This document shows positions 5,713-63,738 of a DNA stretch of 64,000 nt, piece after piece (within the stretch, counting starts at the first letter, position 1; every line of letters begins with the position of its first letter). Both the position numbers and the translations under genes were made by a program. Location of the stretch: NCBI GenBank assembly GCA_902792435.1, contig CADAZN010000015.1, positions 1 to 64,000 of the forward strand, in the 5' to 3' direction. This DNA is from an uncultured Bacteroidales bacterium (GTDB lineage Bacteria > Bacteroidota > Bacteroidia > Bacteroidales > Muribaculaceae). The notes beneath the pieces are model-generated. The model saw nothing but the letters and a program-made list of their open reading frames with translations, was not told the DNA's origin and did not search any database.

Positions 5713-5756
5713 TATCAACGAGGAGTGGTGGTTTCGGAATTCCAAAACCACCCTCA

Positions 5757-5862
5757 CTTGCCACTTGATACTTATTACTTGATATTTGTTACTTGTTACT
5801 TATTACTTATTACTTATTACTTACTACTTACTACTTACTACTTACTACTTAATACTTAACCA
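5757..5862 (+). repeat. 7-bp-period tandem array (TTACTTA type)
   Basis: About 15 degenerate heptamers (TTACTTA, CTACTTA, TTACTTG) run almost without interruption from after the protease stop to three bases before the next start codon. Period 7 holds over about 100 bp. Confidence 0.9.
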
Positions 5863-5864
5863 TC

Positions 5865-6191
5865 ATGTTACTTTTAAAGAGTTTTTTTGACCCAACAGGG
5901 ACTTTCTTCTGGATTTGTGGTATCGTTGCTTCATTAGGTTTAGTTCTAGGATATGTGCCTCAAGCTATCCAAACCATCAGAACTCGTAAAACCGATGACA
6001 TTGCTTTGCCCACATTCCTTATGATTGGTATTGGAGGCATCGCATTCATGTTACAAGGTGGCATGCTCGGCATCTTTGGTGAGGGATTCGCCATCTTCTG
6101 GACCAATCTCATTACCACGATATGTAGCGTTATCATCTTCGGAATCAAGATGTATAACGACTATTTCAAGAAAGACAAGGACAAGAAATAA
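5865..6191 (+). CDS. SemiSWEET-type sugar transporter
   Basis: A 108-residue integral membrane protein with three predicted helices (about 15-34, 50-70, 74-95) and the PQ-loop signature GYVPQAIQTIRTRKTDD of the MtN3/SWEET family. Bacterial SemiSWEETs are half-size proteins that dimerise to form a bidirectional sugar uniporter in the inner membrane. Length and topology fit the family. The start is the ATG directly after a heptamer array, so its ribosome binding and promoter lie in repeat DNA. A lysine-rich tail follows the last helix. A terminator 30 bp downstream ends the unit. The substrate is unknown; the family assignment is fairly firm. Confidence 0.87.
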   Translation: MLLLKSFFDPTGTFFWICGIVASLGLVLGYVPQAIQTIRTRKTDDIALPTFLMIGIGGIAFMLQGGMLGIFGEGFAIFWTNLITTICSVIIFGIKMYNDYFKKDKDKK

Positions 6192-8570: not shown

Positions 8571-8635
8571 ACAACTTAACACTTAACACTTGTTACTTGT
8601 TACTTATTACTTTTTCACTTAACACTTAATTTTTT
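8571..8635 (+). repeat. 7-bp-period tandem array (AACACTT/GTTACTT type)
   Basis: Heptamers AACACTT, GTTACTT and ATTACTT repeat from the fabH terminator up to six bases before the era start. Same period as the array at 5757, with partly related sequence. Confidence 0.85.
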
Positions 8636-9544: not shown

Positions 9545-9590
9545 GTGAAAAACTATGAACTTTGAACTATAAACTCTGAACTATAACTAT
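9545..9590 (+). repeat. 7-bp-period tandem array (GAACTAT type)
   Basis: Heptamers GAACTTT, GAACTAT, AAACTCT and GAACTAT fill most of the era-der gap up to the der start codon. Confidence 0.75.
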
Positions 9591-13812: not shown

Positions 13813-13849
13813 AAAAACTAACAACTAAAAAACTCTGAACTAACAAATA
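13813..13849 (+). repeat. short 7-bp-period array (AACTAAC type)
   Basis: AACTAAC, AACTAAA, AAACTCT and GAACTAAC fill the gap just before the ribH start codon. Confidence 0.6.
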
Positions 13850-14371: not shown

Positions 14372-15664
14372 ATGAATTTTGTAGAAGAACTAACTTGGAG
14401 AGGTATGATTAACAATATCATGCCTGGCACTGAAGAACAGCTAAACAAAGAAATGACTTCGGCCTACGTGGGCATTGACCCAACTGCCGATTCGCTTCAC
14501 ATAGGTCACCTTGTGAGCATCATGATGCTCAAGCACTTTCAGCGTGCAGGACACCGTCCCATCGCCCTCATTGGCGGTGCCACAGGTATGATTGGCGACC
14601 CATCGATGAAGTCGCAGGAGCGCAAGCTCATCGACGAGGAAACACTGCGTCACAACCAGGAGGCTATCAAGGCTCAGCTCTCACACTTCCTCGATTTCGA
14701 TAGCGATGCCCCCAACCACGCCATCCTTGTCAACAACTACGACTGGATGAAGGAATTCTCGTTCCTGAACTTCATCCGCGACATTGGCAAGCACATCACT
14801 GTCAACTACATGATGGCTAAGGATAGCGTCAAGAAGCGCTTGGCTGCCAACGCCGACCATGGCATGTCGTTCACCGAGTTCAGCTATCAGCTCCTCCAGG
14901 GCTACGACTTCCTCTACCTCTATGAGCACGAGGGATGCCGCTTGCAGATGGGTGGTAGCGACCAGTGGGGCAACATCACCACGGGCACCGAGCTCATTCG
15001 CCGCATCGCTGGTGGCGAGGCCTATGCTATCACTTGTCCGCTCATCACCAAGGCCGACGGTGGCAAGTTTGGAAAGACTGAGAGCGGTAACGTGTGGCTC
15101 GATCCAAAGCGCACCTCTCCCTACAAGTTCTATCAGTTCTGGCTCAACGTGAGCGACGCCGACGCTGCCAAGTACATCAAGATTTTCACCGACCTGCCAC
15201 AAGAGGAAATCGCTGCCCTCGAGCAGGAGCAGGAGCGTGATCCAGGTCTGCGTCCGTTGCAAAAGCGCCTGGCCAAGGAAATCACCACTATGGTACACTC
15301 GGCACAGGACTACGAGATGGCAGTCGAGGCTTCGCAAATCCTCTTCAGCAACAAAGCTAAAGACGTCCTCCACAAAATTGACGAGGACACCCTCCTCTCA
15401 GTATTCGAGGGAGTGCCACAGTTTGAGGTAAGTCGCGACGCGCTCGCTGCTGGAGTGCCAGCAATCAACCTACTCACCGACGATGCCGCAGTATTCCCAA
15501 GCAAGGGTGAGATGCGCAAGATGACACAAGGTGGTGGCGTGAGCATCAACAAGGAGAAAATTGCCGATCCCAACATGACAATCGACAACTCATTCCTCCT
15601 CAACGACAAGTACATCCTCGCCCAGCGCGGCAAGAAAAACTACTTCCTCCTCATCGCCAAGTAA
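14372..15664 (+). CDS. tyrS: tyrosyl-tRNA synthetase
   Basis: A 430-residue class I aminoacyl-tRNA synthetase that charges tRNA-Tyr. The HIGH motif is H43-I-G-H46, the tyrosine-binding segment is [30 protein letters not shown] in part (GGSDQWGN is diagnostic), and the KMSKS equivalent is K232-F-G-K-T. A C-terminal S4-like RNA-binding domain ends the protein. It follows ribH by 33 bp and is followed by a terminator. Confidence 0.97.
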
Positions 15665-15725
15665 GGTGAGAGGGAAGAGGATAGAGGAAAAAGAAAAAAG
15701 AAAAAGAAAAGAGGAAAGAGAAAAA

Positions 15726-15752
15726 AGAGGGCCCACGCCCTCTTTTTTTATC
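15726..15752 (+). terminator. terminator after tyrS
   Basis: AGAGGGC / GCCCTCT stem with a 4-nt loop, then seven T. It is preceded by 60 bp of purine-only DNA. Confidence 0.9.
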
Positions 15753-15840
15753 TAGAACCTCTAGCCCCGCTAGCCCCTCTAGATAATCTAGCCCTGCTAG
15801 AACCTCTAGCCCCCTCTAGCCCTTCTAGCCCTCTATAAAA
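15753..15840 (+). repeat. 9-bp-period CTAG array upstream of hsdM
   Basis: Ten CTAG tetramers in 85 bp, almost all exactly 9 bp apart (CTAGaacct, CTAGccccg, CTAGcccct, CTAGataat and so on). CTAG is usually the rarest tetramer in bacterial DNA, so the density is striking. Confidence 0.92.
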
Positions 15841-17422: not shown

Positions 17423-18531
17423 AAGAGGGATGGACATATAAGAAATTAGGAGAGGTGGCTACATTATATGATAGCCAAAGAAAACCTGTTACAAAAAAGG
17501 ATAGAAAAAATGGCATTTATCCTTATTATGGGGCATCAGGTATACAAGATTATGTAGATAATTACATTTTTGATGGTCGTTATCTTTTAGTTGGTGAAGA
17601 TGGAGCAAAATGGGGAGCTAACGATAAAACTGCGTTTATTGTTGAAGGAAAGATATGGGTTAATAATCATGCTCACATAATGACTTTTGATGATTCTGTA
17701 AAAGACAGATTTGTTGAATATTACTTGGTTGGAAAAGATTTAAATGAATATATAACAGGTGCTGTTGTTCCAAAACTTACCCAAGCAAGTTTATCTAAAA
17801 TCACAATTCCCATTCCCCCTCTTGCTGAGCAGGAGCGGATAGTTGCGGAATTGGACTTGTTGAGCAGCATTATCGACAAGAAAAAGGCACAACTCAAAGA
17901 ACTTAACCAGCTCGCTCAATCCATCTTCTACACCATGTTCGGCGACCCCATCACCAACGAAAAAGCCTGGAAAGTAAAGAAATTAGGAGAGGTAGCAAAA
18001 GAAAAACTATCCTATGGCTCAGGAGCTTCAGCCATTCAATATAATGGGGAGATGAGATATATAAGAATAACAGATATTAAAGATGACGGAGAACTGAATC
18101 ATGATATAGTATCACCAAGCATTTATGATGATAAATATCTTTTAAATGATGGGGATATACTTTTTGCTCGAAGTGGAGCAACTGTCGGTAAAACTTTTCA
18201 GTATAAAAGTAAATATGGAAAATGCATTTATGCAGGTTATTTAATTCGTTTAATACCTAATAAAGAAATTATTTTACCATCCTATATATTTGGTTATACT
18301 AAATCACCTTTTTATCGCAGTTTTGTTTTAAAAGCTCAAAATGCAGTTGCACAACCTAATATTAATGCAAAACAATATAGTGAATTGCCCATCCCTCTTC
18401 CCCCTCTCCCCCTCCAACAGGAGTTTGCCTCAAAGGTTGAGGCAATAGAGCGACAAAAGTCGCTCATTCAGCAATCCATTGTCGAAACGCAGACGCTTTT
18501 CGACAGCCGCATGGACCACTGGTTTGGCTAG
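17419..18531 (+). CDS. hsdS: type I restriction system specificity subunit
   Basis: A 370-residue HsdS that sets the DNA target sequence. Two target-recognition domains (about residues 5-135 and 190-320) are each followed by a conserved helical spacer (IPIPPLAEQERIVAELD at about 135 and PIPLPPLPLQQEFASKVEAIE at about 325). The recognition domains are clearly AT-rich in codon use, while the spacers look like the rest of the genome, the usual sign of domain exchange. The stop codon TAG is the first unit of a CTAG array. Confidence 0.95.
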   Translation: MKEGWTYKKLGEVATLYDSQRKPVTKKDRKNGIYPYYGASGIQDYVDNYIFDGRYLLVGEDGAKWGANDKTAFIVEGKIWVNNHAHIMTFDDSVKDRFVEYYLVGKDLNEYITGAVVPKLTQASLSKITIPIPPLAEQERIVAELDLLSSIIDKKKAQLKELNQLAQSIFYTMFGDPITNEKAWKVKKLGEVAKEKLSYGSGASAIQYNGEMRYIRITDIKDDGELNHDIVSPSIYDDKYLLNDGDILFARSGATVGKTFQYKSKYGKCIYAGYLIRLIPNKEIILPSYIFGYTKSPFYRSFVLKAQNAVAQPNINAKQYSELPIPLPPLPLQQEFASKVEAIERQKSLIQQSIVETQTLFDSRMDHWFG

Positions 18532-18700
18532 GAAATCTAGAACTTCTAGAAACATTAGAGCTTCTAGAAAAACTAGAGCTTCTAGAAACATTAGAGCTTC
18601 TAGAAAAACTAGAACTTCTAGAATCATTAGATAAACTAGAAAAATAAAAAATAAAATGGACAATAAAGACAATAAAGATAAGAAAGATAAAAAATATAAA
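18528..18700 (+). repeat. 9-bp-period CTAG array between hsdS and the four-helix-bundle gene
   Basis: CTAG or TTAG recurs every 9 bp, in phase, from the hsdS stop codon (18528) to 18639. The 9-bp rhythm then continues as ATAAAGACA-type units into the coding region of the next gene until about 18700. Confidence 0.92.
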
Positions 18701-22776: not shown

Positions 22777-22830
22777 CTCCCCCTCTAAGATAGAGGGGGA
22801 TACAGGGGGAGTATGAAAAAACTGAAAACT
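22777..22830 (+). repeat. REP-like repeat unit, copy 1
   Basis: Hairpin CCCCCTCTA, loop AGA, TAGAGGGGG (22779-22799), then a GGGGGAGTATGA segment and the heptamer-like ACTGAAA. Closely related copies lie at 23187, 24887 and, with another hairpin, 24683. Confidence 0.85.
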
Positions 22831-23186: not shown

Positions 23187-23265
23187 AGCTCCCCCTCTAA
23201 GATAGAGGGGGTAGGGGGGAGTATGATAAAACTGAAAACTGACTACTGAGAACTGACAACTATTT
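23187..23265 (+). repeat. REP-like repeat unit, copy 2
   Basis: Same 9-bp-stem hairpin (23191-23211), GGGGGAGTATGATAAA segment and four to five ACTGAxx heptamers as the copy at 24887. Confidence 0.88.
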
Positions 23266-24682: not shown

Positions 24683-24775
24683 CTCTCCCTCTGTAGGGAC
24701 AAGGCGTGCCTTGTCCGCAAAGGGGGTAAGGATGAGTATGATAAAACTGAAAACCGACTACTGAAAACTGAGAAG
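24683..24775 (+). repeat. REP-like repeat unit with a different hairpin
   Basis: Same frame as the other REP-like copies (CTCCCTCT ... GGGGGTAAGGATGAGTATGATAAA, then ACTGAxx heptamers), but between the two arms sits another palindrome, GGACAAGGC-GT-GCCTTGTCC (24697-24716). Confidence 0.8.
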
Positions 24776-24886: not shown

Positions 24887-24960
24887 CTCCCCCTCTAAGA
24901 TAGAGGGGGTAAGGGGGAGTATGATAAAACTGAAAACTGACTACTGAGAACTGAGAACTG
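24887..24960 (+). repeat. REP-like repeat unit, copy 3
   Basis: Hairpin CCCCCTCTA, loop AGA, TAGAGGGGG (24889-24909), the GGGGGAGTATGATAAA segment and ACTGAxx heptamers ending two bases before the stop codon of the DUF4421 gene. Confidence 0.88.
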
Positions 24961-24962
24961 GT

Positions 24963-26174
24963 TTAGAAGCGGATGCCTGCTAGTGCTGAGAACTCGAGCA
25001 GGGAGCTCACGAGGTGGCTGTCGTGCTTCTTGTAGCGGTGGTGGTCGCCATAGGCCTGGAAGCCCATGAAGAAATTTTTGTGGTTGTAGACTGCACCGAT
25101 GCGCGCCCTTATGTTGAGCGAGAAGTCGCTTTGCCTCTCACCGGGCTGTGGCTTGATGTTGTAACGATAACCCAGATAAGGGGTCAAGGTGAAATTCAAC
25201 AACCACTTGGGACTCAACACCCAGTTGTAGCCGTAGCCCACAAGCACGCAGTAGTCGTTATAAAGGATGCGTGGCAGCTCGGCCTGCATGGGGATATAAT
25301 CGTAGGCCTCTTCGGGCATTTTCTCGGGATCAAACTTCACGTCAAAATGCTGCATGCTGATTCCTGCCAAGAAGGAGCCGGCACTGCGCTTTTGATACTT
25401 TGAGAAGCAGTAGGCTGCAGCTTGTGCATATCGCCTGTTGTTGAAGAAATAATAGGCGGTGAGACCCATCGCCTTGCGGCTGACTCCGGACTGCCTGATT
25501 TTGTGCCGCTCGTTGTCGGCGTTCTTGTCAACATAGTAGACGTTGATATCGTTCTGGTTCTCCCAGTAGTAGGCATCGGCGGTAAACCGAGCGCAAGTGA
25601 AGGAGAAGTCGACCTTGTTTGACACTTTGCCACCATGAATGAGATTGCTGATGCTTACCGAGTAGCCCAAGCTCACAGCCATGAACGATAGCGTCACACC
25701 AATGTTTGACACCAAATGGCTGTTCATTATCACCTTCATGTCTTTGAAGGGCGTGCCAATGTAGGAATCGAACCAGTTGTTGCTCTTGAGAAATAGTTTC
25801 CAGTTCTTGCCAGTGTGTTTCACATAGGCACTGTCGTAGCTGTTGAAAGCTCGGTCGCCCCACATATAAGTGTTGTAGCAAAACATGACAAACTTGGGAT
25901 ATCCCATAGTGCTGTCCTTGAAGTTGATTTTGCCATGCTTCATGGCTCGCCACCAGTATCGCTTGTCGCGCGTGGTGTCGTAGGGCTCGTTGAGCTTATC
26001 GTTGATGCGCTGAGTGATATTCTGCTTCAACTGCTGGAACTTGCTCAACTTAGGCACGGTGTCTTGCTGCACGGTGTCTTGCTGCTCGGGCACAACAGGT
26101 TGCTCCGCAGTCTGTCCCCACGAGAGGGCAGTCATGCAAAGCATGAGCATTAATATCAAGTAGAAGCGTTTCAT
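24963..26174 (-). CDS. DUF4421-family outer-membrane-like protein
   Basis: About 403 residues with a Sec signal peptide (MKRFYLILMLMLCMTALSWG) and then alternating aromatic beta-strand segments up to a C-terminal FSALAGIRF, typical of an outer-membrane beta barrel. It matches my memory of DUF4421, a Bacteroidales family of unknown function (KRYWWRAMKHGKINFKD; GYPKFVMFCYNTYMWGDRAFN). The ATG at 26174 is chosen over an in-frame TTG at 26183 because the signal peptide starts there. It lies 12 bp after the broken phospholipase A gene, likely in the same transcript. Confidence 0.82.
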   Translation of the reverse strand: MKRFYLILMLMLCMTALSWGQTAEQPVVPEQQDTVQQDTVPKLSKFQQLKQNITQRINDKLNEPYDTTRDKRYWWRAMKHGKINFKDSTMGYPKFVMFCYNTYMWGDRAFNSYDSAYVKHTGKNWKLFLKSNNWFDSYIGTPFKDMKVIMNSHLVSNIGVTLSFMAVSLGYSVSISNLIHGGKVSNKVDFSFTCARFTADAYYWENQNDINVYYVDKNADNERHKIRQSGVSRKAMGLTAYYFFNNRRYAQAAAYCFSKYQKRSAGSFLAGISMQHFDVKFDPEKMPEEAYDYIPMQAELPRILYNDYCVLVGYGYNWVLSPKWLLNFTLTPYLGYRYNIKPQPGERQSDFSLNIRARIGAVYNHKNFFMGFQAYGDHHRYKKHDSHLVSSLLEFSALAGIRF

Positions 26175-26186
26175 CAACTGCAATCT

Positions 26187-26961: not shown

Positions 26962-27003
26962 TTCGTTTATCGTTTATCGTTTATCGTTTGTCGTTTATCG
27001 TGA
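26962..27003 (-). repeat. 7-bp-period tandem array (CGTTTAT type)
   Basis: CGTTTAT repeated five times with one CGTTTGT, directly upstream of the pldA start codon. The same heptamer appears at 47930-48020. Confidence 0.9.
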
Positions 27004-34464: not shown

Positions 34465-36138
34465 TTACTCCCTGAAGCTGCTGCCTCCCAGGAACTCCCT
34501 GATGAGGCTGGTGCTGGGAATGGTGTTGTCGCTGATGGACTTGAAGTAACGCAAGAAGCGCAGCAGTCGGCTTGCCTCGGCAAACTCGGGCACGTTGGTT
34601 GGCACTTGTCGCAGCACTGTCTCGGCCTGCTCCTTGATGACAGCGAGCTCAAAGAGGAGCGACGAGTTGAGCATGGCGTCGGCATTCTCCTGATAAGGGA
34701 AAATCCATTTCTCTTCGCCTCGGCGCACACTGGGCCATCGCGCGATGCTCGACCGGGCGTCTACGCTGCGGTACTTGTAGTCGCGCACGATGCGGCGCAG
34801 CAGGCGGTTGTCGCTAGTTGATACCCAGTTGTGATCGTCGATGCTCAGAGTGGTGAGCGCGCTCACATACACGCGGTATTTCATCTCCTCGGGAATCTCC
34901 TTGGTGAGCTCGGGGTTAAGGCCGTGAATGCCCTCCATGAGCAGGATGTTGTTGTCCTTGAGCTGGAGAGTGTCGCCACGATATTCGCGCTCACCGGTGT
35001 GGAAATTATAGGTGGGCATTTTCACCTCTTCGCCTGCGATGAGTGCCTTTAGGTCGTGGTTGAACAGCTCCAGGTCGAGTGCATAGAGCGACTCGTAGTC
35101 ATACTCGCCTCGCTCATCGCTTGGCGTGTGGGCACGGTCGACAAAGTAGTTGTCGAGCGAGATGACGCGGGGCACGATGTAGTTGGTGAGCAGCTGAATG
35201 GCTAGGCGCTTGCTCGACGTGGTCTTACCACTTGATGAGGGGCCTGCGATGAGCACCACGCGTGCTCCGCCGTTGTGATAGCGCTCGGTGATGTCGTCGG
35301 CGATGCGCGAGAACATCTTCTCGTGCAGGGCCTCGGCAACGTTGATGATGTCGGGCGCCCAGCCACTGTCGATGCCCTTGTTGAGAGTGCCCACGTCGTC
35401 GAGACCCACAATGTCGTTAAACTTCACATAGCGGGTGAACGCCTTGAACATTTTCTCCATGGGATAGGACTTGCGAGGCAGTTCAGGGTTGTCCTTGTCG
35501 GGGCCCAGCAGCAGCATGCCGTCTTTGTAGGGCTCAAGGTTGAACACCTTGATGTATCCTGTGGAGGGCGCCAGTGGCTCATAGTAGCTGTCGATAACGT
35601 TGTCGAGCTTGTAGAACACAGTGTAAAGGTCGCTGCTTGACTCCAGTAGTCGCACCTTGTCGTTGAGGCCTTGCTTGCGGAACATCTCCACGACGTCGGT
35701 TGTGAGACGCTCACGGCGCACAAACTTGATGTCCTGGTCGATAATCTCCTGCATTCGAGCTTTGAGGCGCTCGATATTTTCGGGTGTGAGGAGCTTCTCA
35801 TCATGCTTGATGGTGCAGTAGAACCCGCCCGAGATGCTGTGCTCGATGCGCAATCGCTTGCCCGGGAAGAGGTCGACAATGGCCTTGTAGAGAATCATAC
35901 ATAACGAGTGGATATAGACCCTGATGCCTTGTGGCGATACGGGCTCTATGTACTCAACCATCTTGGGCCCGAACACTGGATAGTTGAGAGCTTCGAGCTT
36001 GTTGTTTACCAGAGCGCAAATGGGCTTGAACGGGATGCGCTTTTCGATGGTTTCATATATCTGTTGCAAGGTGTCGCCACCGTCGATGTCGATATACTCT
36101 TGTGTGTTTTTGCAAAAAATCTTTAAGTCGTTAGTCAT
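34465..36138 (-). CDS. TGS-domain uridine kinase-like nucleoside kinase
   Basis: A 557-residue protein. Residues 1-70 form a TGS-like domain (IDIDGGDTLQQIYETI), a threonyl-tRNA-synthetase-like second additional domain follows (to about 200), and the C-terminal half is a P-loop kinase of the uridine kinase/phosphoribulokinase type with Walker A GPSSSGKTT (about 287-295), SLDNYFVDRAHTP and YDYESLYALDLE. Many Bacteroidetes carry this fusion, annotated as nucleoside kinase. The TGS part suggests nucleotide or RNA sensing; the substrate is not proven by sequence. Confidence 0.87.
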   Translation of the reverse strand: MTNDLKIFCKNTQEYIDIDGGDTLQQIYETIEKRIPFKPICALVNNKLEALNYPVFGPKMVEYIEPVSPQGIRVYIHSLCMILYKAIVDLFPGKRLRIEHSISGGFYCTIKHDEKLLTPENIERLKARMQEIIDQDIKFVRRERLTTDVVEMFRKQGLNDKVRLLESSSDLYTVFYKLDNVIDSYYEPLAPSTGYIKVFNLEPYKDGMLLLGPDKDNPELPRKSYPMEKMFKAFTRYVKFNDIVGLDDVGTLNKGIDSGWAPDIINVAEALHEKMFSRIADDITERYHNGGARVVLIAGPSSSGKTTSSKRLAIQLLTNYIVPRVISLDNYFVDRAHTPSDERGEYDYESLYALDLELFNHDLKALIAGEEVKMPTYNFHTGEREYRGDTLQLKDNNILLMEGIHGLNPELTKEIPEEMKYRVYVSALTTLSIDDHNWVSTSDNRLLRRIVRDYKYRSVDARSSIARWPSVRRGEEKWIFPYQENADAMLNSSLLFELAVIKEQAETVLRQVPTNVPEFAEASRLLRFLRYFKSISDNTIPSTSLIREFLGGSSFRE

Positions 36139-36202
36139 TGTTTAGTTATGAGTATTGAGTTATGAGTATTGAGTCTATGAACTGTGAACTGTGAACTATG
36201 AA
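36139..36202 (-). repeat. 7/14-bp-period tandem array
   Basis: Read on the plus strand: two copies of TATGAGTATTGAGT (14 bp) followed by GAACTGT, GAACTGT, GAACTAT and GAACTAC heptamers. It fills the gap between two minus-strand genes. Confidence 0.88.
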
Positions 36203-36472
36203 CTACAAAGCTGCAACGGCAAAGATTGCAGCATAGCTGAGCCACAGGAGGATGAGCAGGATCCACATTATCTCGGGTCGCTCGTTGCGGCAGAACCATG
36301 CCATGAGCACCGACCCGAGCGCATAGAACGGGAAAACCACCATAAGCATTCGCTTGGCGTTGTTGAAGAGGTAGGCACTATCGTGCAAAATGGATACTGG
36401 CCACCACAGCAGTGGCAGCAGCGAAAGCCAAATCATCAGTTTCTTCCAGCGTGGAGTCTTCTCGTGGTTCAT
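36203..36472 (-). CDS. small membrane protein, unknown function
   Basis: An 89-residue protein with three predicted membrane helices (about 12-31, 43-60, 66-87) starting MNHEKTPRWKK. The start at 36472 is preferred: an upstream in-frame start would overlap the end of the TPR gene at 36480. The gap to that gene is 7 bp, so it is probably cotranscribed with the TPR pair. No family recognised. Confidence 0.65.
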   Translation of the reverse strand: MNHEKTPRWKKLMIWLSLLPLLWWPVSILHDSAYLFNNAKRMLMVVFPFYALGSVLMAWFCRNERPEIMWILLILLWLSYAAIFAVAAL

Positions 36473-36479
36473 TCTAATA

Positions 36480-38426
36480 TTATTCTTTTGGTTTGTACTC
36501 GCCATTGAGCCAGCGAGTTTTGTATTCATTTATGATGTTCAAGAACTTAGGATTGTCGCGCACGTTATCGAAATCATAGTCGAGAATGGTGTAGCCATAG
36601 TTGAGCGCGTCATCACTGTTGCCCTCGAAGTGCTTCTTTAGGAAACTAATGGCCTGGTCGATGTCGCCATGAAGAGCATAGGCGCATGCGAGGTTGTAGT
36701 TCGACATTGTCTCGGGTAGCGGCCCGAGGGCTACTAAGTCATCATAGGTCATCTCGATTAATTGCGTGGTGTTAGCCGAGAGTCGGTCAAGAATAGCCTT
36801 CGACTCGTCGGTTCGTCCAAGATAATAGAGGGCGCACATCTTAGTCTCTTCATTGTAGTTGAAATCATGTGTGGCGAGGAGTTCGTTAAGTATCTCTTGT
36901 CCCTCGTTCACCTTCCCCGACAGGACTAGTGCTCGTGCTTTGTAATAGGTTGGCATGATGTTATCCTCTTCGCTCTTGGCCCATTGTTCGTAGCAATCGA
37001 TGGCGTTTTTCCAGTCGCCTTTGGCGCTCAGGGCCCATCCCAGAGTGCTGTAGCAGAAACTCATCAAGTTGCTACCAAGATAGCTCTGCACCTTGGCATC
37101 GTTAACGACTTGGTCGGCCAGTCCGCAGTTCATCGCTATCTCTATTTTGTGCTTAAAAGCATTGTTATTGTCATCGTCTTTAACAGCAGCAACGTCAAGG
37201 ATATAGAGCGCCTTATTCACATCGCCAAGCTTGTAATAGAGGTCGGCTAAATAGGTGAGAGTAGTGACGTCGTTGGTGACTTTGATAGCCTTTTTAGCAC
37301 ATTCTAGTGCTTTGTTGTAGTCGTGACTGACTTTTTCGTGCATCATAGCCTCTACTAACGGCCAGTTGATGGGCAGCTCGTCGGAGAACTGGTGTTGTTC
37401 CTGCTTTTTGATGGTGTCGAGCAACTTGCTCAGGTTTTCATCGCTAATGGTAGCAATCGCTGCCAGAGGGGTGTAGGCATCGTCGATAGCACCACCGTTG
37501 GCTAGTGTCACAATATCGTCGACAGCTTCGTCATATCGTTTTGCGTGAGAGAGAGTTGAGGCTCTCATCTTAACCAATTCGGCGTTATCAGGATCAATAG
37601 AAATGAGCTGGTTGATGATTTCTAGTGCTTTGTCATAGTTCTCGCGTTTCACTTCGCAAGAAGCTAAATAAAGTTGCACTATTTCATTGTCAGGAAGGTA
37701 GGTTTGTGCCTTCTGGGCACACTTTTCCACCATTTCATTGTTCTCGTTATCACTATAGAAATTTAAGAGCTTGAGGTAGCTATTGTCGCAAGGATGAACA
37801 TTTGTCGCTTCGATGAGGCAAGCCTCCTGAAGGTTTTCGTCTAAGTCGTTCTCCTTGAGGATGTCGTTCTTTGCCAGCAGGGCCTTGCAGCGCGACTCTT
37901 TGTCGGCTGCTGGGAGCATTGCGATTCCCTCGTCAAGCAACTTCAAGGCATTAGTGATGGCAGTTTCCTTTTCTTTCAATTTCTCTTGGTAGAATGCGTC
38001 GATTAGTGCCATTCTTTCCTCGTCGGTGGCGCCATTTGGAATCTTTACGACCTGTAGGCCGCTGAAAATATCTACCAGCAACATGTTGAGGCTGATGGTC
38101 GCGATATGGCACTCGCACAACGCGATGTTGCATTTTGCATAGGCATTGCGTGGGTGCTGCTTGAGTTCTTTATTGAAGAAGGTGATGGCACTCTTGTAGG
38201 GGGCAGTTTCATCGACATCGGCATCGGCATCGGCATCGTCAGTTGCAACAGCATCTATTTCTTGTGTCATTGACTTCACACCAAGCTCGAAATTCTTGCT
38301 GCTGGTCCACTTGTTGTATTGCTTGCTGTCGATAACCTCGGCCAGCGTTTCGTCATTGTCGGGCACGGTCTCGTCGTTGACATAATCAATCATCTTGAGC
38401 CCATGCTGTTGCTGCCAGCATCGCAA
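36480..38426 (-). CDS. periplasmic TPR protein, signal peptide out of frame
   Basis: About 640 residues with many TPR-like helix pairs (for example NYNLACAYALHGDIDQAISFLKK in part) and a clear paralogue directly upstream (38473-40263): DSKQYNKWTSSKNF corresponds to DSDQYNQWTTSTNF. A perfect signal peptide, MNKFRLLAVTLFAMLAATAWA, starts at ATG 38460 but stops after QDD at 38386; the mature part is in the frame one base further. A one-base insertion in 38386-38395 explains it. As read, the body could start only from TTG 38426 or ATG 38393, without a signal. Either a recent frameshift, a sequencing error or a phase-variable switch. Confidence 0.8.
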   Translation of the reverse strand: MRCWQQQHGLKMIDYVNDETVPDNDETLAEVIDSKQYNKWTSSKNFELGVKSMTQEIDAVATDDADADADVDETAPYKSAITFFNKELKQHPRNAYAKCNIALCECHIATISLNMLLVDIFSGLQVVKIPNGATDEERMALIDAFYQEKLKEKETAITNALKLLDEGIAMLPAADKESRCKALLAKNDILKENDLDENLQEACLIEATNVHPCDNSYLKLLNFYSDNENNEMVEKCAQKAQTYLPDNEIVQLYLASCEVKRENYDKALEIINQLISIDPDNAELVKMRASTLSHAKRYDEAVDDIVTLANGGAIDDAYTPLAAIATISDENLSKLLDTIKKQEQHQFSDELPINWPLVEAMMHEKVSHDYNKALECAKKAIKVTNDVTTLTYLADLYYKLGDVNKALYILDVAAVKDDDNNNAFKHKIEIAMNCGLADQVVNDAKVQSYLGSNLMSFCYSTLGWALSAKGDWKNAIDCYEQWAKSEEDNIMPTYYKARALVLSGKVNEGQEILNELLATHDFNYNEETKMCALYYLGRTDESKAILDRLSANTTQLIEMTYDDLVALGPLPETMSNYNLACAYALHGDIDQAISFLKKHFEGNSDDALNYGYTILDYDFDNVRDNPKFLNIINEYKTRWLNGEYKPKE

Positions 38427-47916: not shown

Positions 47917-47925
47917 ATATTCGTT

Positions 47926-48020
47926 TATCGTTTATGGTTTATCGTTTATCGTGATTGTGATCGTGAACGTGATCGGGGTATCTCTTCCCTCGTTTATCGT
48001 TTATGGTTTATTGTTTGGAA
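47926..48020 (-). repeat. 7-bp-period tandem arrays (CGTTTAT type)
   Basis: Two blocks of CGTTTAT/GGTTTAT heptamers (47930-47952 and 47995-48016) with a 6-bp-period block of GTGATC/GTGAAC between them, in the 5' leader of the GH3 gene. Confidence 0.88.
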
Positions 48021-58216: not shown

Positions 58217-58227
58217 GGAAAAAGTTT

Positions 58228-58275
58228 TCAGTTATCGGTTATCGGTTGCCAGTTTTTGGTTTTTGGTTTGGTGTT
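58228..58275 (+). repeat. 7-bp-period tandem array (GGTTATC/GGTTTTT type)
   Basis: AGTTATC, GGTTATC, GGTTGCC, AGTTTTT, GGTTTTT and GGTTTGG in exact heptamer register, between divergent metG and the SGNH gene. Confidence 0.85.
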
Positions 58276-62190: not shown

Positions 62191-63669
62191 ATGATTTCGA
62201 CTACACACATCATGGGCGTTGTGCTCACAGTGGCAGTGTTGCTGCTGGTGAGCTGGCTCTCGTCGCGCAATGTTAAAGATGAGCGCAGTTTCACGACAGG
62301 TGGCACCGCTGGCAGTTGGATGGTGTGTGGCGCGTTCCTCACCACGCTGGCGGGTGGCCAGTCGACGGTGGGCACTGCACAATTAGCCTTCTGCTATGGC
62401 ATTTCGGCCTGGTGGTTCACACTGGGCGCTGCGCTTGGTGGTGTGATGCTTGCGGTGTTCTATGCCGGGCCACTTCGTCGCAGTGGTTGCAGCACGTTGC
62501 TCGAGCTAGTGGGCCGCGAATATGGCCACAAGGTGGAAGCCTTGGGTTCAATCCTGTTCTTGATAGGCATCTTTATCAGCATAGTGGCCCAAGTGCTCAC
62601 ATCGGGAGCGATGATTGGCAGCTTGTTTAACGTGAACACATTGTGGTCGCTCATCATTGGCGCAGTGCTAATAATGCTGTTTGTCATCTTTGGTGGCATA
62701 AAGAGTGCCGGAGCTGGTGGAATAGTGAAACTGATACTCCTGTACTTTGGGTCGGTTGCTACAGGCATTATTGTGTATCGCATGGCAGGAGGTTTCGACG
62801 GTTTTGCACAAGGCATCGACGACATTTACAAGTCTTCCACCATAGCATCATTCAATGGTCTGGACGGCATTGAAGCAATTCATCATCGCTATGGCAGCAT
62901 GCTTGCCCGTGGTGCATTAAAGGACCTGGGTGGATGCCTATCGCTGGTGCTTGGAGTGGTGTCGACGCAAACTTATGCGCAATGCATTTGGTCGGGAGCC
63001 ACTACTGCCAAGGCGCGTCGTGGCGCATTGTTGTGTGCTTTCTTCATTCCTGTGATTGGCGCAGCTTGCACACTGGTGGGGCTCTACATGCGAGGCCATT
63101 ATGTGACAGCTGCCGAACTCGAGGCCCTCAAGCAAGCTGGCGAGACTCTTCCTGACGGAATTGGTGTTATAGCCAACTCGGCTCAGGCGTTCCCGTCGTT
63201 CATCTTGCAGCACCTGCCTGCATGGTTTGGAGGCTTGATGCTAGGAGCGTTGCTCATCAACATTCTGGGCTGTGGCAGTGGGCTGATGCTTGGTGCGTCA
63301 ACAATTCTTGTGCGCGACGTTGTTGCTAACGTGCAGCGCAAGTTCTCAAAGCTGCAAATGGGAATGTCGCAGTTGTTGCAGACTCGCCTTGCAATTGTGG
63401 TGTTGCTTGCGATTGCGGTTGCTGTTGCCAACACTTTTGAGGGAAGTTTTATCAACGATTTGGGGTTCCTTTCATTGGGCCTGAGGGCTGTGGCGATCAT
63501 TTTCCCGCTGAGCTTCGCCTTGTGGTTGCCTGGGCGCTTTTCGCCTCGTGGCGTGATGCTGGCAATGGTTGCTGGCACAGCGGCTATGTTGCTCGCAGGC
63601 TGGGCGAACTTGCCGGGAGACGCAGTGTACTATGGCCTCGCCACATCACTTTTAGTTATTAGTTTTTAG
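62191..63669 (+). CDS. sodium:solute symporter family transporter
   Basis: A 492-residue secondary transporter with about twelve to thirteen membrane helices and SSS-family features: TTGGTAGSWMVCGAFLTTLAGGQSTVGTAQLAF in parts (the broken TM1 with GGQST), YGISAWWFTLGAALGG and TQTYAQCIWSGATTAKARRG. It uses the sodium gradient to import a small solute, not identifiable here. The last codons (LLVISF, stop TAG) lie in a 7-bp-period repeat (TTAGTTA, TTAGTTT), so the C-terminus may have been altered by repeat growth. Confidence 0.9.
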   Translation: MISTTHIMGVVLTVAVLLLVSWLSSRNVKDERSFTTGGTAGSWMVCGAFLTTLAGGQSTVGTAQLAFCYGISAWWFTLGAALGGVMLAVFYAGPLRRSGCSTLLELVGREYGHKVEALGSILFLIGIFISIVAQVLTSGAMIGSLFNVNTLWSLIIGAVLIMLFVIFGGIKSAGAGGIVKLILLYFGSVATGIIVYRMAGGFDGFAQGIDDIYKSSTIASFNGLDGIEAIHHRYGSMLARGALKDLGGCLSLVLGVVSTQTYAQCIWSGATTAKARRGALLCAFFIPVIGAACTLVGLYMRGHYVTAAELEALKQAGETLPDGIGVIANSAQAFPSFILQHLPAWFGGLMLGALLINILGCGSGLMLGASTILVRDVVANVQRKFSKLQMGMSQLLQTRLAIVVLLAIAVAVANTFEGSFINDLGFLSLGLRAVAIIFPLSFALWLPGRFSPRGVMLAMVAGTAAMLLAGWANLPGDAVYYGLATSLLVISF

Positions 63670-63735
63670 TTTTTCTAGATGTTCTAGAATGTCTAGAGGT
63701 TCTAGATTGTGCATTGTGCATTATGCTTTATGCAT
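63651..63735 (+). repeat. composite array: 7-bp, 9-bp CTAG and 7-bp blocks
   Basis: TTAGTTA/TTAGTTT heptamers (63653-63674), four CTAG units exactly 9 bp apart (63675-63709), then TGTGCAT/TATGCAT heptamers (63711-63735). Both repeat classes meet in one spacer. Confidence 0.88.
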
Positions 63736-63738
63736 TAT

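Follow-up and report, generated by a model that had tools for sequence, protein, structure and literature searches.

Degenerate seven-base tandem arrays in noncoding DNA of a Sodaliphilus-like Muribaculaceae genome and its relatives

Heptameric short tandem repeats (STRR) are known from cyanobacteria, and Paludibacter propionicigenes, a species that recurs below, belongs to Bacteroidales. The closest described system is the TAACTGA direct repeat, which the portions of the source available to us place in Beggiatoaceae, Cyanobacteria and five Bacteroidetes including P. propionicigenes (MacGregor 2015, PMC4679880). The same portions of that paper describe TAACTGA before start codons in one Beggiatoaceae genome and in Flexibacter litoralis, mixed heptamer arrays in Microcystis, Gramella, Aequorivita and Elizabethkingia, 7-nt indels between Cyanothece strains, and relatives that carry no repeats at the same gap. 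A second system, the GGGAATC and GGGGA(C/T)T heptamers of Xanthomonas and Nostoc, has a strand preference corresponding to that found here, according to the available parts of PMC4692102. As cited in the accessible parts of both papers, Mrazek (2007) found seven nucleotides to be the most abundant long simple sequence repeat (SSR) class in most genomes and proposed a 7-nt polymerase contact as the cause; excerpts of PMC12699852 add that Bacteroidota have a high density of short tandem repeats.

Published work already covers heptamer excess, its explanation by 7-nt polymerase contact and, for five Bacteroidetes, TAACTGA arrays, and an earlier note on the DNA analysed here, which knew of no described system in Bacteroidales, was in part mistaken on this point (PMC4679880, in the portions available). 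That paper was the only literature on heptamer arrays in Bacteroidetes found by our search, which covered few subscription journals, and absence from print is not claimed; the accessible parts of PMC4060949 and PMC7015867 hold nothing on Bacteroidetes heptamers.

The seven-base period in window, genome and genus

The window, that is, the whole 64,000-base stretch that was analysed (bases 1-64000 of contig C15), is part of a 2.96-Mb genome in 56 contigs, whose genus is Sodaliphilus-like, within the Muribaculaceae. Gene calls rest on a crude longest-ORF criterion, so all coding and noncoding labels and start positions are approximate. Within the 7,232 noncoding bases of the window, 5-base words matched at lag 7 in 195 cases (20 shuffles gave 13.2, sd 3.8); harmonics appeared at 14, 21 and 28, and a smaller second series at 9, 18 and 27. 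Window coding DNA showed no period 7, its word matches falling at multiples of three only. Tandem Repeats Finder (TRF) also reported many period-7 arrays in the window. Across 464 kb of the same genome, 19 noncoding period-7 arrays reached a lag-7 score of at least 14 (0.2 after shuffling), compared with none at periods 5 and 8, one at 6, five at 9 and two at 10; 19 of the 21 arrays at this threshold were noncoding.

Relatives were found by their Era protein and gave a genus set of 80 loci (1.31 Mb, 166 kb noncoding). They are metagenome-assembled genomes (MAGs) or uncultured, many of them from rumen and other gut samples, and are labelled Muribaculaceae, Prevotellaceae, Porphyromonadaceae or Bacteroidales, two being Candidatus Sodaliphilus. 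Species comparisons used one genome per species. Certain stretches share sequence, L080 and L152 for instance overlapping by less than 1 kb, and orthologous loci are numerous; where stated, counting was by orthology group (159 gaps in 67 groups, the largest with 58 gaps). At a score of at least 12, the 80 loci held 126 noncoding arrays at period 7, as against two at 4, none at 5 or 6, nine at 8, 24 at 9 and nine at 10, harmonics 14 and 21 apart, and 47 of the 80 loci had at least one array. Density varied from 20 arrays per 10.6 kb of noncoding DNA in G049 to six per 7.7 kb in G024 and three per 8.3 kb in G010; in the single-contig genome G060, two stretches with 5.6 kb of noncoding DNA had none. 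The period spectrum that the earlier note had proposed as a check has its 7-bp peak over shuffled controls in the noncoding DNA of the window and the 464 kb, and period 7 leads in the genus too.

In the wider set, 17 of 198 arrays lay mostly within crude ORFs. As a separate observation, an ACTCATC array of about 19 units (L276 608-741, at about 48.2 kb of contig C10 of the same genome) sits within a long open frame and may be a real coding array or reflect a wrong ORF on the crude gene map.

For the window itself, the claim of period-7 arrays at many gaps held up: when 13 listed places were compared by lag-7 score with 500 dinucleotide shuffles of each gap, 11 beat the shuffles. None of the 500 reached the observed score at ten places (5757, 8571, 9545, 23228, 24926, 26962, 36139, 47930, 58228 and 63653/63711, the last two counted as one gap). 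The scores at 13813 and 22800 were not above chance, with 36 and 34 of 500 shuffles reaching them; these places correspond to a doubtful AACTAAC array upstream of a lumazine synthase gene (13813..13831, plus strand, score 7) and to two ACTGAAA units behind a dispersed hairpin, which make no array alone (22818..22830, plus).

The array at 5755..5859 (plus) comprises 15 units of ACTTATT, ACTTACT and ACTTGTT and scored 68, against a shuffle maximum of 10.5; TRF assigned it period 7 and 12.9 copies over 5769-5858, and it stops 5 nt upstream of the ATG of a PQ-loop gene (gene at 5865; Pfam). Two further arrays lie in consecutive gaps around era. The first, with ACTTAAC, ACTTGTT and ACTTATT (8574..8629, plus, score 24), occupies the fabH-era gap, its neighbours matching ACP synthase III and a GTPase plus KH domains; the second, with ACTATGA, ACTTTGA and ACTCTGA (9551..9582, plus, score 12.5), occupies the era-der gap and lies 8 nt upstream of the der ATG. 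A purine-rich AAAAAGA array that the earlier list did not contain (15669..15728, plus, score 25.5) begins 4 nt past the stop of gene 14372-15664. Further along, a hairpin block joined to an array spans 23190..23262 (plus), the array proper being 23228-23261 with ACTGAAA, ACTGACT and ACTGAGA; an ACTGAAA array follows a related dispersed block at 24743..24774 (plus, one of 500 shuffles); and the array at 24926..24960 (minus), AGTT-type in the direction of gene 24963-26183, starts 2 nt past the stop of that minus-strand gene.

The second half of the window added AAACGAT arrays, one at 26963..27001 (minus, unit in gene direction, score 27), one at 47921..47952 (minus, score 20) that ends 4 nt upstream of a GH3-family gene start (GH3 by Pfam), and a second AAACGAT-type array in the same gap as the latter (47990..48016, minus, score 15), again absent from the earlier list. 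An array running from ACTCATA/ACTCAAT to AGTTCAC (36149..36202, minus, score 17) lies upstream of gene 34465-36138 and begins at the stop codon of a small ORF (36203-36529), itself uncertain on the crude map. GATAACC and AAAACCA units fill part of a divergent gap (58223..58269, no strand assigned, score 17.5). Finally, a TTAGTTT array (63652..63674, plus, score 13.5) overlaps the end of gene 62191-63669, and ATTATGC/ATTGTGC units (63706..63738, no strand assigned, score 18.5) stand immediately past a 9-bp CTAG array. Such 9-bp arrays form a second class, with period 9 on CTAG (TCTAGANNN), seen in the window at 15751-15835, 18528-18631 and 63674-63710 and also in era gaps of relatives.

Units, register and turnover

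The 198 arrays have 79 consensus units, the commonest being AACACTT, AAAACTG and AAAAACT, and average 35% G+C; ATCCCCG (GATCCCC type) is the consensus of eight arrays and AACTGAT (TAACTGA type) of four. With the best array taken from each gap group, 38 of 67 groups contained ACT or AGT, compared with 18.0 (sd 3.6) for permuted units. Variable columns adjoined one another (z 4.6 with 116 arrays; z 3.0 with 45 groups), so that one part of the unit looks like a constant core and the rest like free spacer. Minor alleles were not gathered in particular columns (z -0.7, 77 arrays), and a model with one hypervariable column per unit was rejected on that value.

The earlier note had claimed that units vary while the register holds, and rightly so. 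Its clearest case is an array of the same genome (L261) in which one 7-bp register runs through about 343 bp, or 49 consecutive 7-base steps, along which the unit changes from TCAGTTN to TCACTNA and others and back, with the register unbroken. ACT recurred at spacing 7 in 42 cases, at 9 in seven and at 6 in two in this genome, and in 238 cases at 7 and 11 elsewhere in the genus. Cores were specific to their period, with CTAGA at 9, ACT mainly at 7 and, judged by eye, CTCGA at about 8 in G049; four successive CTAGA occurred at spacing 9 only in the combined own and genus data.

Likeness between units bears on how arrays arise. Among 77 arrays found by lag 7, a set in which detection is biased toward likeness at separation 1, unit identity fell with separation (0.81, 0.78, 0.74, 0.73, 0.73 and 0.71), which speaks against a single external template. 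Within ACT-phased arrays, which were found without this bias, adjacent spacers resembled each other no more closely than after shuffling (41 arrays of genus and own genome, z 0.0; 36 of the own genome, z 0.5). Next-but-one spacers were raised in both sets (z 4.0), with weak distance decay; counted per array, this excess came to 60 versus 42 with five ties and was not significant (p 0.09). Arrays that alternate two units, such as (ACTTGTT ACTTCCT)n, show two-unit copying directly; these and a block repeat were present in the own genome. Single-step 7-nt copying was rejected, its signal being absent in core-phased arrays. Of the slippage with a 7-nt step that the earlier note had suggested, the slippage idea itself is already in print, as the available parts of the citing papers tell, and a pure 7-nt step was not borne out, spacers being alike next-but-one and not when adjacent.

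The gaps on either side of era allowed arrays to be compared at one place across species. We compared the fabH-era and era-der gaps side by side in 30 genus genomes, four era-der gaps not being delimitable. Across the 80 loci, at a lag-7 score of at least 9, arrays were present in 37 of 75 delimitable fabH-era gaps (shuffle 0.0) and in 40 of 68 delimitable era-der gaps (shuffle 0.8). Units at the same place differed by species (ACTGAAA, ACTAAGG, ACTTACA, ACTATGA and others), as did copy numbers, and the register stayed. In the closest pair (L100 and L064, flank identity 94-100%), the era-der gap measured 42 versus 118 bp, a difference of 76 bp or 11 units less one base, and the fabH-era gap 127 versus 211 bp, a difference of 84 bp or 12 units. 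A comparison between relatives, as the earlier note had advised, found arrays that differ in units and lengths between species and are not identical everywhere. Length differences over pairs of orthologous gaps gave no multiple-of-7 peak (four of 28 pairs at a flank identity of 90% or more, eight of 64 at 85%, ten of 79 at 80%), and mod-7 length differences over species pairs were dropped as a signature. The genus is a tractable case, with fabH-era-der gaps that carry different heptamer arrays in dozens of species, and array birth, growth, switching and loss could be followed there gap by gap. Some relatives (L003, L005 and L008) have an era-der gap of 574-637 bp, several times longer, with an apparent small inserted gene, the start of which we take to resemble GxxExxY proteins.

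Explanations for the arrays

Microsatellite-like growth by slippage or unequal recombination, combined with spread of unit families, is the best reading and, by a cautious estimate, a somewhat probable one; it does not cover the choice of seven. The arrays would be heptamer simple sequence repeats, a bacterial microsatellite, that grow and shrink in place through replication slippage or unequal recombination by whole units (7, sometimes 14 or blocks). Within a genome, unit families may move from gap to gap, either through exchange among arrays that resemble each other or inside dispersed blocks, and point changes would build up with the register intact, such that one array passes through several families. 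Growth within genes would be purged because 7 is not a multiple of 3, leaving arrays in gaps, often up to a start or from a stop codon, and beside start codons selection would favour variants whose mRNA leader stays unstructured. Consistent with this account are the period of 7 in noncoding DNA, the gap differences between L100 and L064, the decay of identity, the two-unit and block repeats and, as set out below, unit sharing, the mosaics of G049, and the A+C orientation and low folding at starts. Against it stand the missing mod-7 peak, the null result for adjacent spacers, the lack of orientation in some gap classes, the coexistence of 8- and 9-bp arrays with their own cores, and a period 7 that is about level with period 8 outside the genus. 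Support for in-place growth is reduced by the unbiased neighbour test and the mod-7 counts. Loss of mismatch repair was discarded as a cause: MutS_I was found in all ten genomes tested.

Arrays could alternatively be functional leaders, selected as ladders of binding sites before start codons, for ribosomal protein S1 or another RNA-binding protein that the 7-nt spacing would reflect; we consider this unlikely as a general account, if the strongest of the alternatives. Among 175 noncoding arrays, the closest gene boundary was a start codon for 87 and a stop codon for 84. Of the former, 59 lay within 20 nt, and 51 of these 59 were A+C-rich in gene direction, which fits leaders; of the latter, 66 lay within 20 nt, with 31 of 66 A+C-rich, and these 84 arrays with their different orientation do not fit. 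Several begin exactly at a stop codon that forms part of the first unit (TAAGTGT, TAGGCTT, TAATTCT, TAGTTCA). Counted by orthology group, A+C-rich arrays made up 15 of 17 groups in start-only gaps (p 0.002) and four of 17 for stop-nearest arrays of convergent gaps (p 0.049). The orientation was absent from stop-to-start gaps (eight of 18 groups) and stop-only codirectional gaps (ten of 22), and interior arrays gave nine of 14 groups and divergent ones three of five and five of eight. The orientation rule is therefore partial.

In the same line, folding was weaker for start-adjacent arrays than for either control: 23 of 34 groups when set against the reverse complements (p 0.006), 24 of 34 when set against versions with permuted columns (p 0.015). 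The bias in orientation, partial as it is, hints that arrays before starts serve as unstructured leaders. Such a function is plausible there because translation initiation in Bacteroidetes lacks Shine-Dalgarno signals and favours leaders free of structure, to which S1 binding has been proposed (PMC3155529, in the parts available); arrays after stops are not covered by such a function. The ACT core above chance, the adjoining variable columns and the matching position of TAACTGA in one Beggiatoaceae genome and Flexibacter litoralis (PMC4679880, available portions) also favour leaders. Conversely, the same gap is without an array in many relatives, minor alleles are not concentrated in columns, and ACT exceeded its reversed control in 41 genomes of the order sample and fell below it in 37.

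Two other sequence properties were considered for the arrays and not adopted. A stop-codon barrier was suggested by an excess of stop triplets over units with permuted columns (z 6.6 sense, 5.8 antisense, 4.6 convergent), a set dominated by related gaps; the own genome and G049 alone gave z 2.0 and -0.5. Amino/keto skew (0.172 versus a background of 0.095, with purine/pyrimidine at 0.155 versus 0.076) was rejected as a selected property, since one 7-letter unit gives about 0.156 by chance.

A third reading, that arrays travel inside small mobile or REP-like blocks of hairpin and array types and are mutual copies, appears a little less likely still. Pairs of arrays from different gaps of one genome shared their unit type in 0.169 of 1301 cases, against 0.107 (sd 0.014) with genome labels shuffled; as many of these pairs lie on one 20-kb stretch, long-range spread is not proven. 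Some gaps of G049 (L080, L151-L156) are ordered mosaics with 8-bp CTCGANNN arrays among the 7-bp ones. By eye, the order TTTATGG, AGGTGAG, 8-bp TACT array, ACTGAAA was seen in two of its gaps, and the order AAGGACA, AATGCAC, CTCGANNN, GATCCCC, GC hairpin, ACTTAAC was whole in one gap and partial in three more. Such recurring order and the sharing of units favour copying as blocks.

A dispersed hairpin block (CTCCCCCTCT..AGAGGGGG..GGGGGAGTATGA) occurs in the window at 22778-22830, 23190-23262, 24721-24774 and 24888-24959. The hairpin-plus-array block at 23190..23262 had at least 34 matches in its own genome, with 40 of 88 candidates scored: at least six cover both parts wholly or partly, at least 13 the hairpin only and at least 15 the array only. 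The hairpin block, some copies of which precede a heptamer array, resembles a REP or a small non-autonomous element. Two points oppose joint travel as the general explanation: among the matches scored, 13 of 19 with the hairpin had no array part and 15 of 21 with the array had no hairpin, and orthologous gaps keep their place while units change, which simple insertion does not give. The earlier note had also held that the pattern is not the spread of one repeat, a statement not supported in view of unit sharing within genomes, an ACT core above chance, array types recurring in order in G049 and the dispersed hairpin-plus-array block. Its contrast between a generating mechanism and repeat spread is too sharp, as there are traces of both.

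How far the pattern extends beyond the genus was assessed in Era-match lists which, besides the own genome, comprised 48, 56 and 59 genomes (family, order and phylum, some listed twice). Of 20 stretches per list (up to 20 kb each), 19, 20 and 20 were examined, and G099, of the same genus, was kept apart. At a score of at least 10, three period-7 arrays were found in the 19 genomes of 16 other family genera, six in the 20 of other order families and two in the 20 of other phylum members, with three, four and three arrays at period 8 (37-40 kb of noncoding DNA each), and period 7 was not clearly ahead of period 8 in these stretches. In searches of whole genomes, ACT at every seventh base, five times over, which is a broader pattern than TAACTGA, was present in 67 of 119 order genomes and 73 of 118 phylum genomes, the own genome counted in both. 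The reversed control, itself a 7-spaced pattern, gave totals of 2678 versus 3642 for ACT in the order sample, and with the split of 41 above and 37 below, ACT was not supported there as a phylum-wide core. For genomes with high counts or hits, 16 of 20 loci were examined (six of nine genomes), the G335 and G300 stretches being picked at pattern hits. Period 7 led clearly in G335 (11 versus one at 8), less in G235 (10 versus six) and barely in G256, G337 and G300 (two to three versus one to two); 40 kb of G325 had no period-7 arrays. G335, from another family of the window's class, carries two similar array copies with starts about 200 bp apart (L254 8096-8205 and 8301-8392), in which the unit shifts stepwise in one register. 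Arrays of this kind are found widely, though unevenly, across a phylum that is dominant in the gut.

We regard it as quite improbable that in some Bacteroidota a short core (ACT in this genus) is read or written at seven-base intervals by an active system, with start-adjacent arrays as ladders for a protein of 7-nt footprint and the spacer letters free; if true, that protein would have left its imprint as a period that stays fixed while the letters change. A dedicated generator, such as a templated polymerase or an enzyme measuring 7 nt that makes a step of fixed length, seems more improbable yet: it would suit a period that persists over 49 consecutive steps while the family changes, as well as the recurrence of heptamer arrays in other families and orders of the phylum, whereas two-unit and block repeats, and identity decay in a biased test, point to local copying, and 8-bp and 9-bp arrays coexist. 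An assembly artefact is almost certainly not the cause, for although the relatives are MAGs or uncultured and long-array lengths may be wrong, arrays are found in a large number of separate assemblies (47 of 80 loci), none of 13 checked contig starts reached a lag-7 score of 9, and the point variation between units is unlike a product of collapse.

Comparison with known systems

Like TAACTGA repeats, the arrays described here are intergenic heptamer tandems, some of them before starts, and ACTGA is common to both. TAACTGA repeats have one main unit, with related heptamers rarely repeated in the main genome (PMC4679880, available portions), whereas our set contains 79 unit types, TAACTGA-type in four arrays, organized in families with an ACT core and seen at one gap across dozens of species. 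TAACTGA units stand in forward orientation a few nt before a start codon; here, start-only arrays are A+C-rich in 15 of 17 groups and arrays of the other classes are not. The G-rich heptamers of Xanthomonas and Nostoc are likewise noncoding and differ in length and sequence between close species at the same genes, and form quadruplexes (PMC4692102, in its accessible parts); in contrast, the commonest units here lack G-tracts. CRISPR arrays, with long conserved repeats and unique spacers, do not correspond to units of 7 bp. With heptanucleotide long SSRs the arrays share 7-bp tandem units above chance and a noncoding location; they differ from long SSRs and STRR in being degenerate, with unit families that change in register, a comparison made with Mrazek (2007) through the available parts of citing papers.

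Overall, the feature is real and striking, and its extent in Bacteroidota exceeds the published accounts that we found. What is added here to those accounts is scale, in-register switching of unit families and the comparison of one gap over many species.
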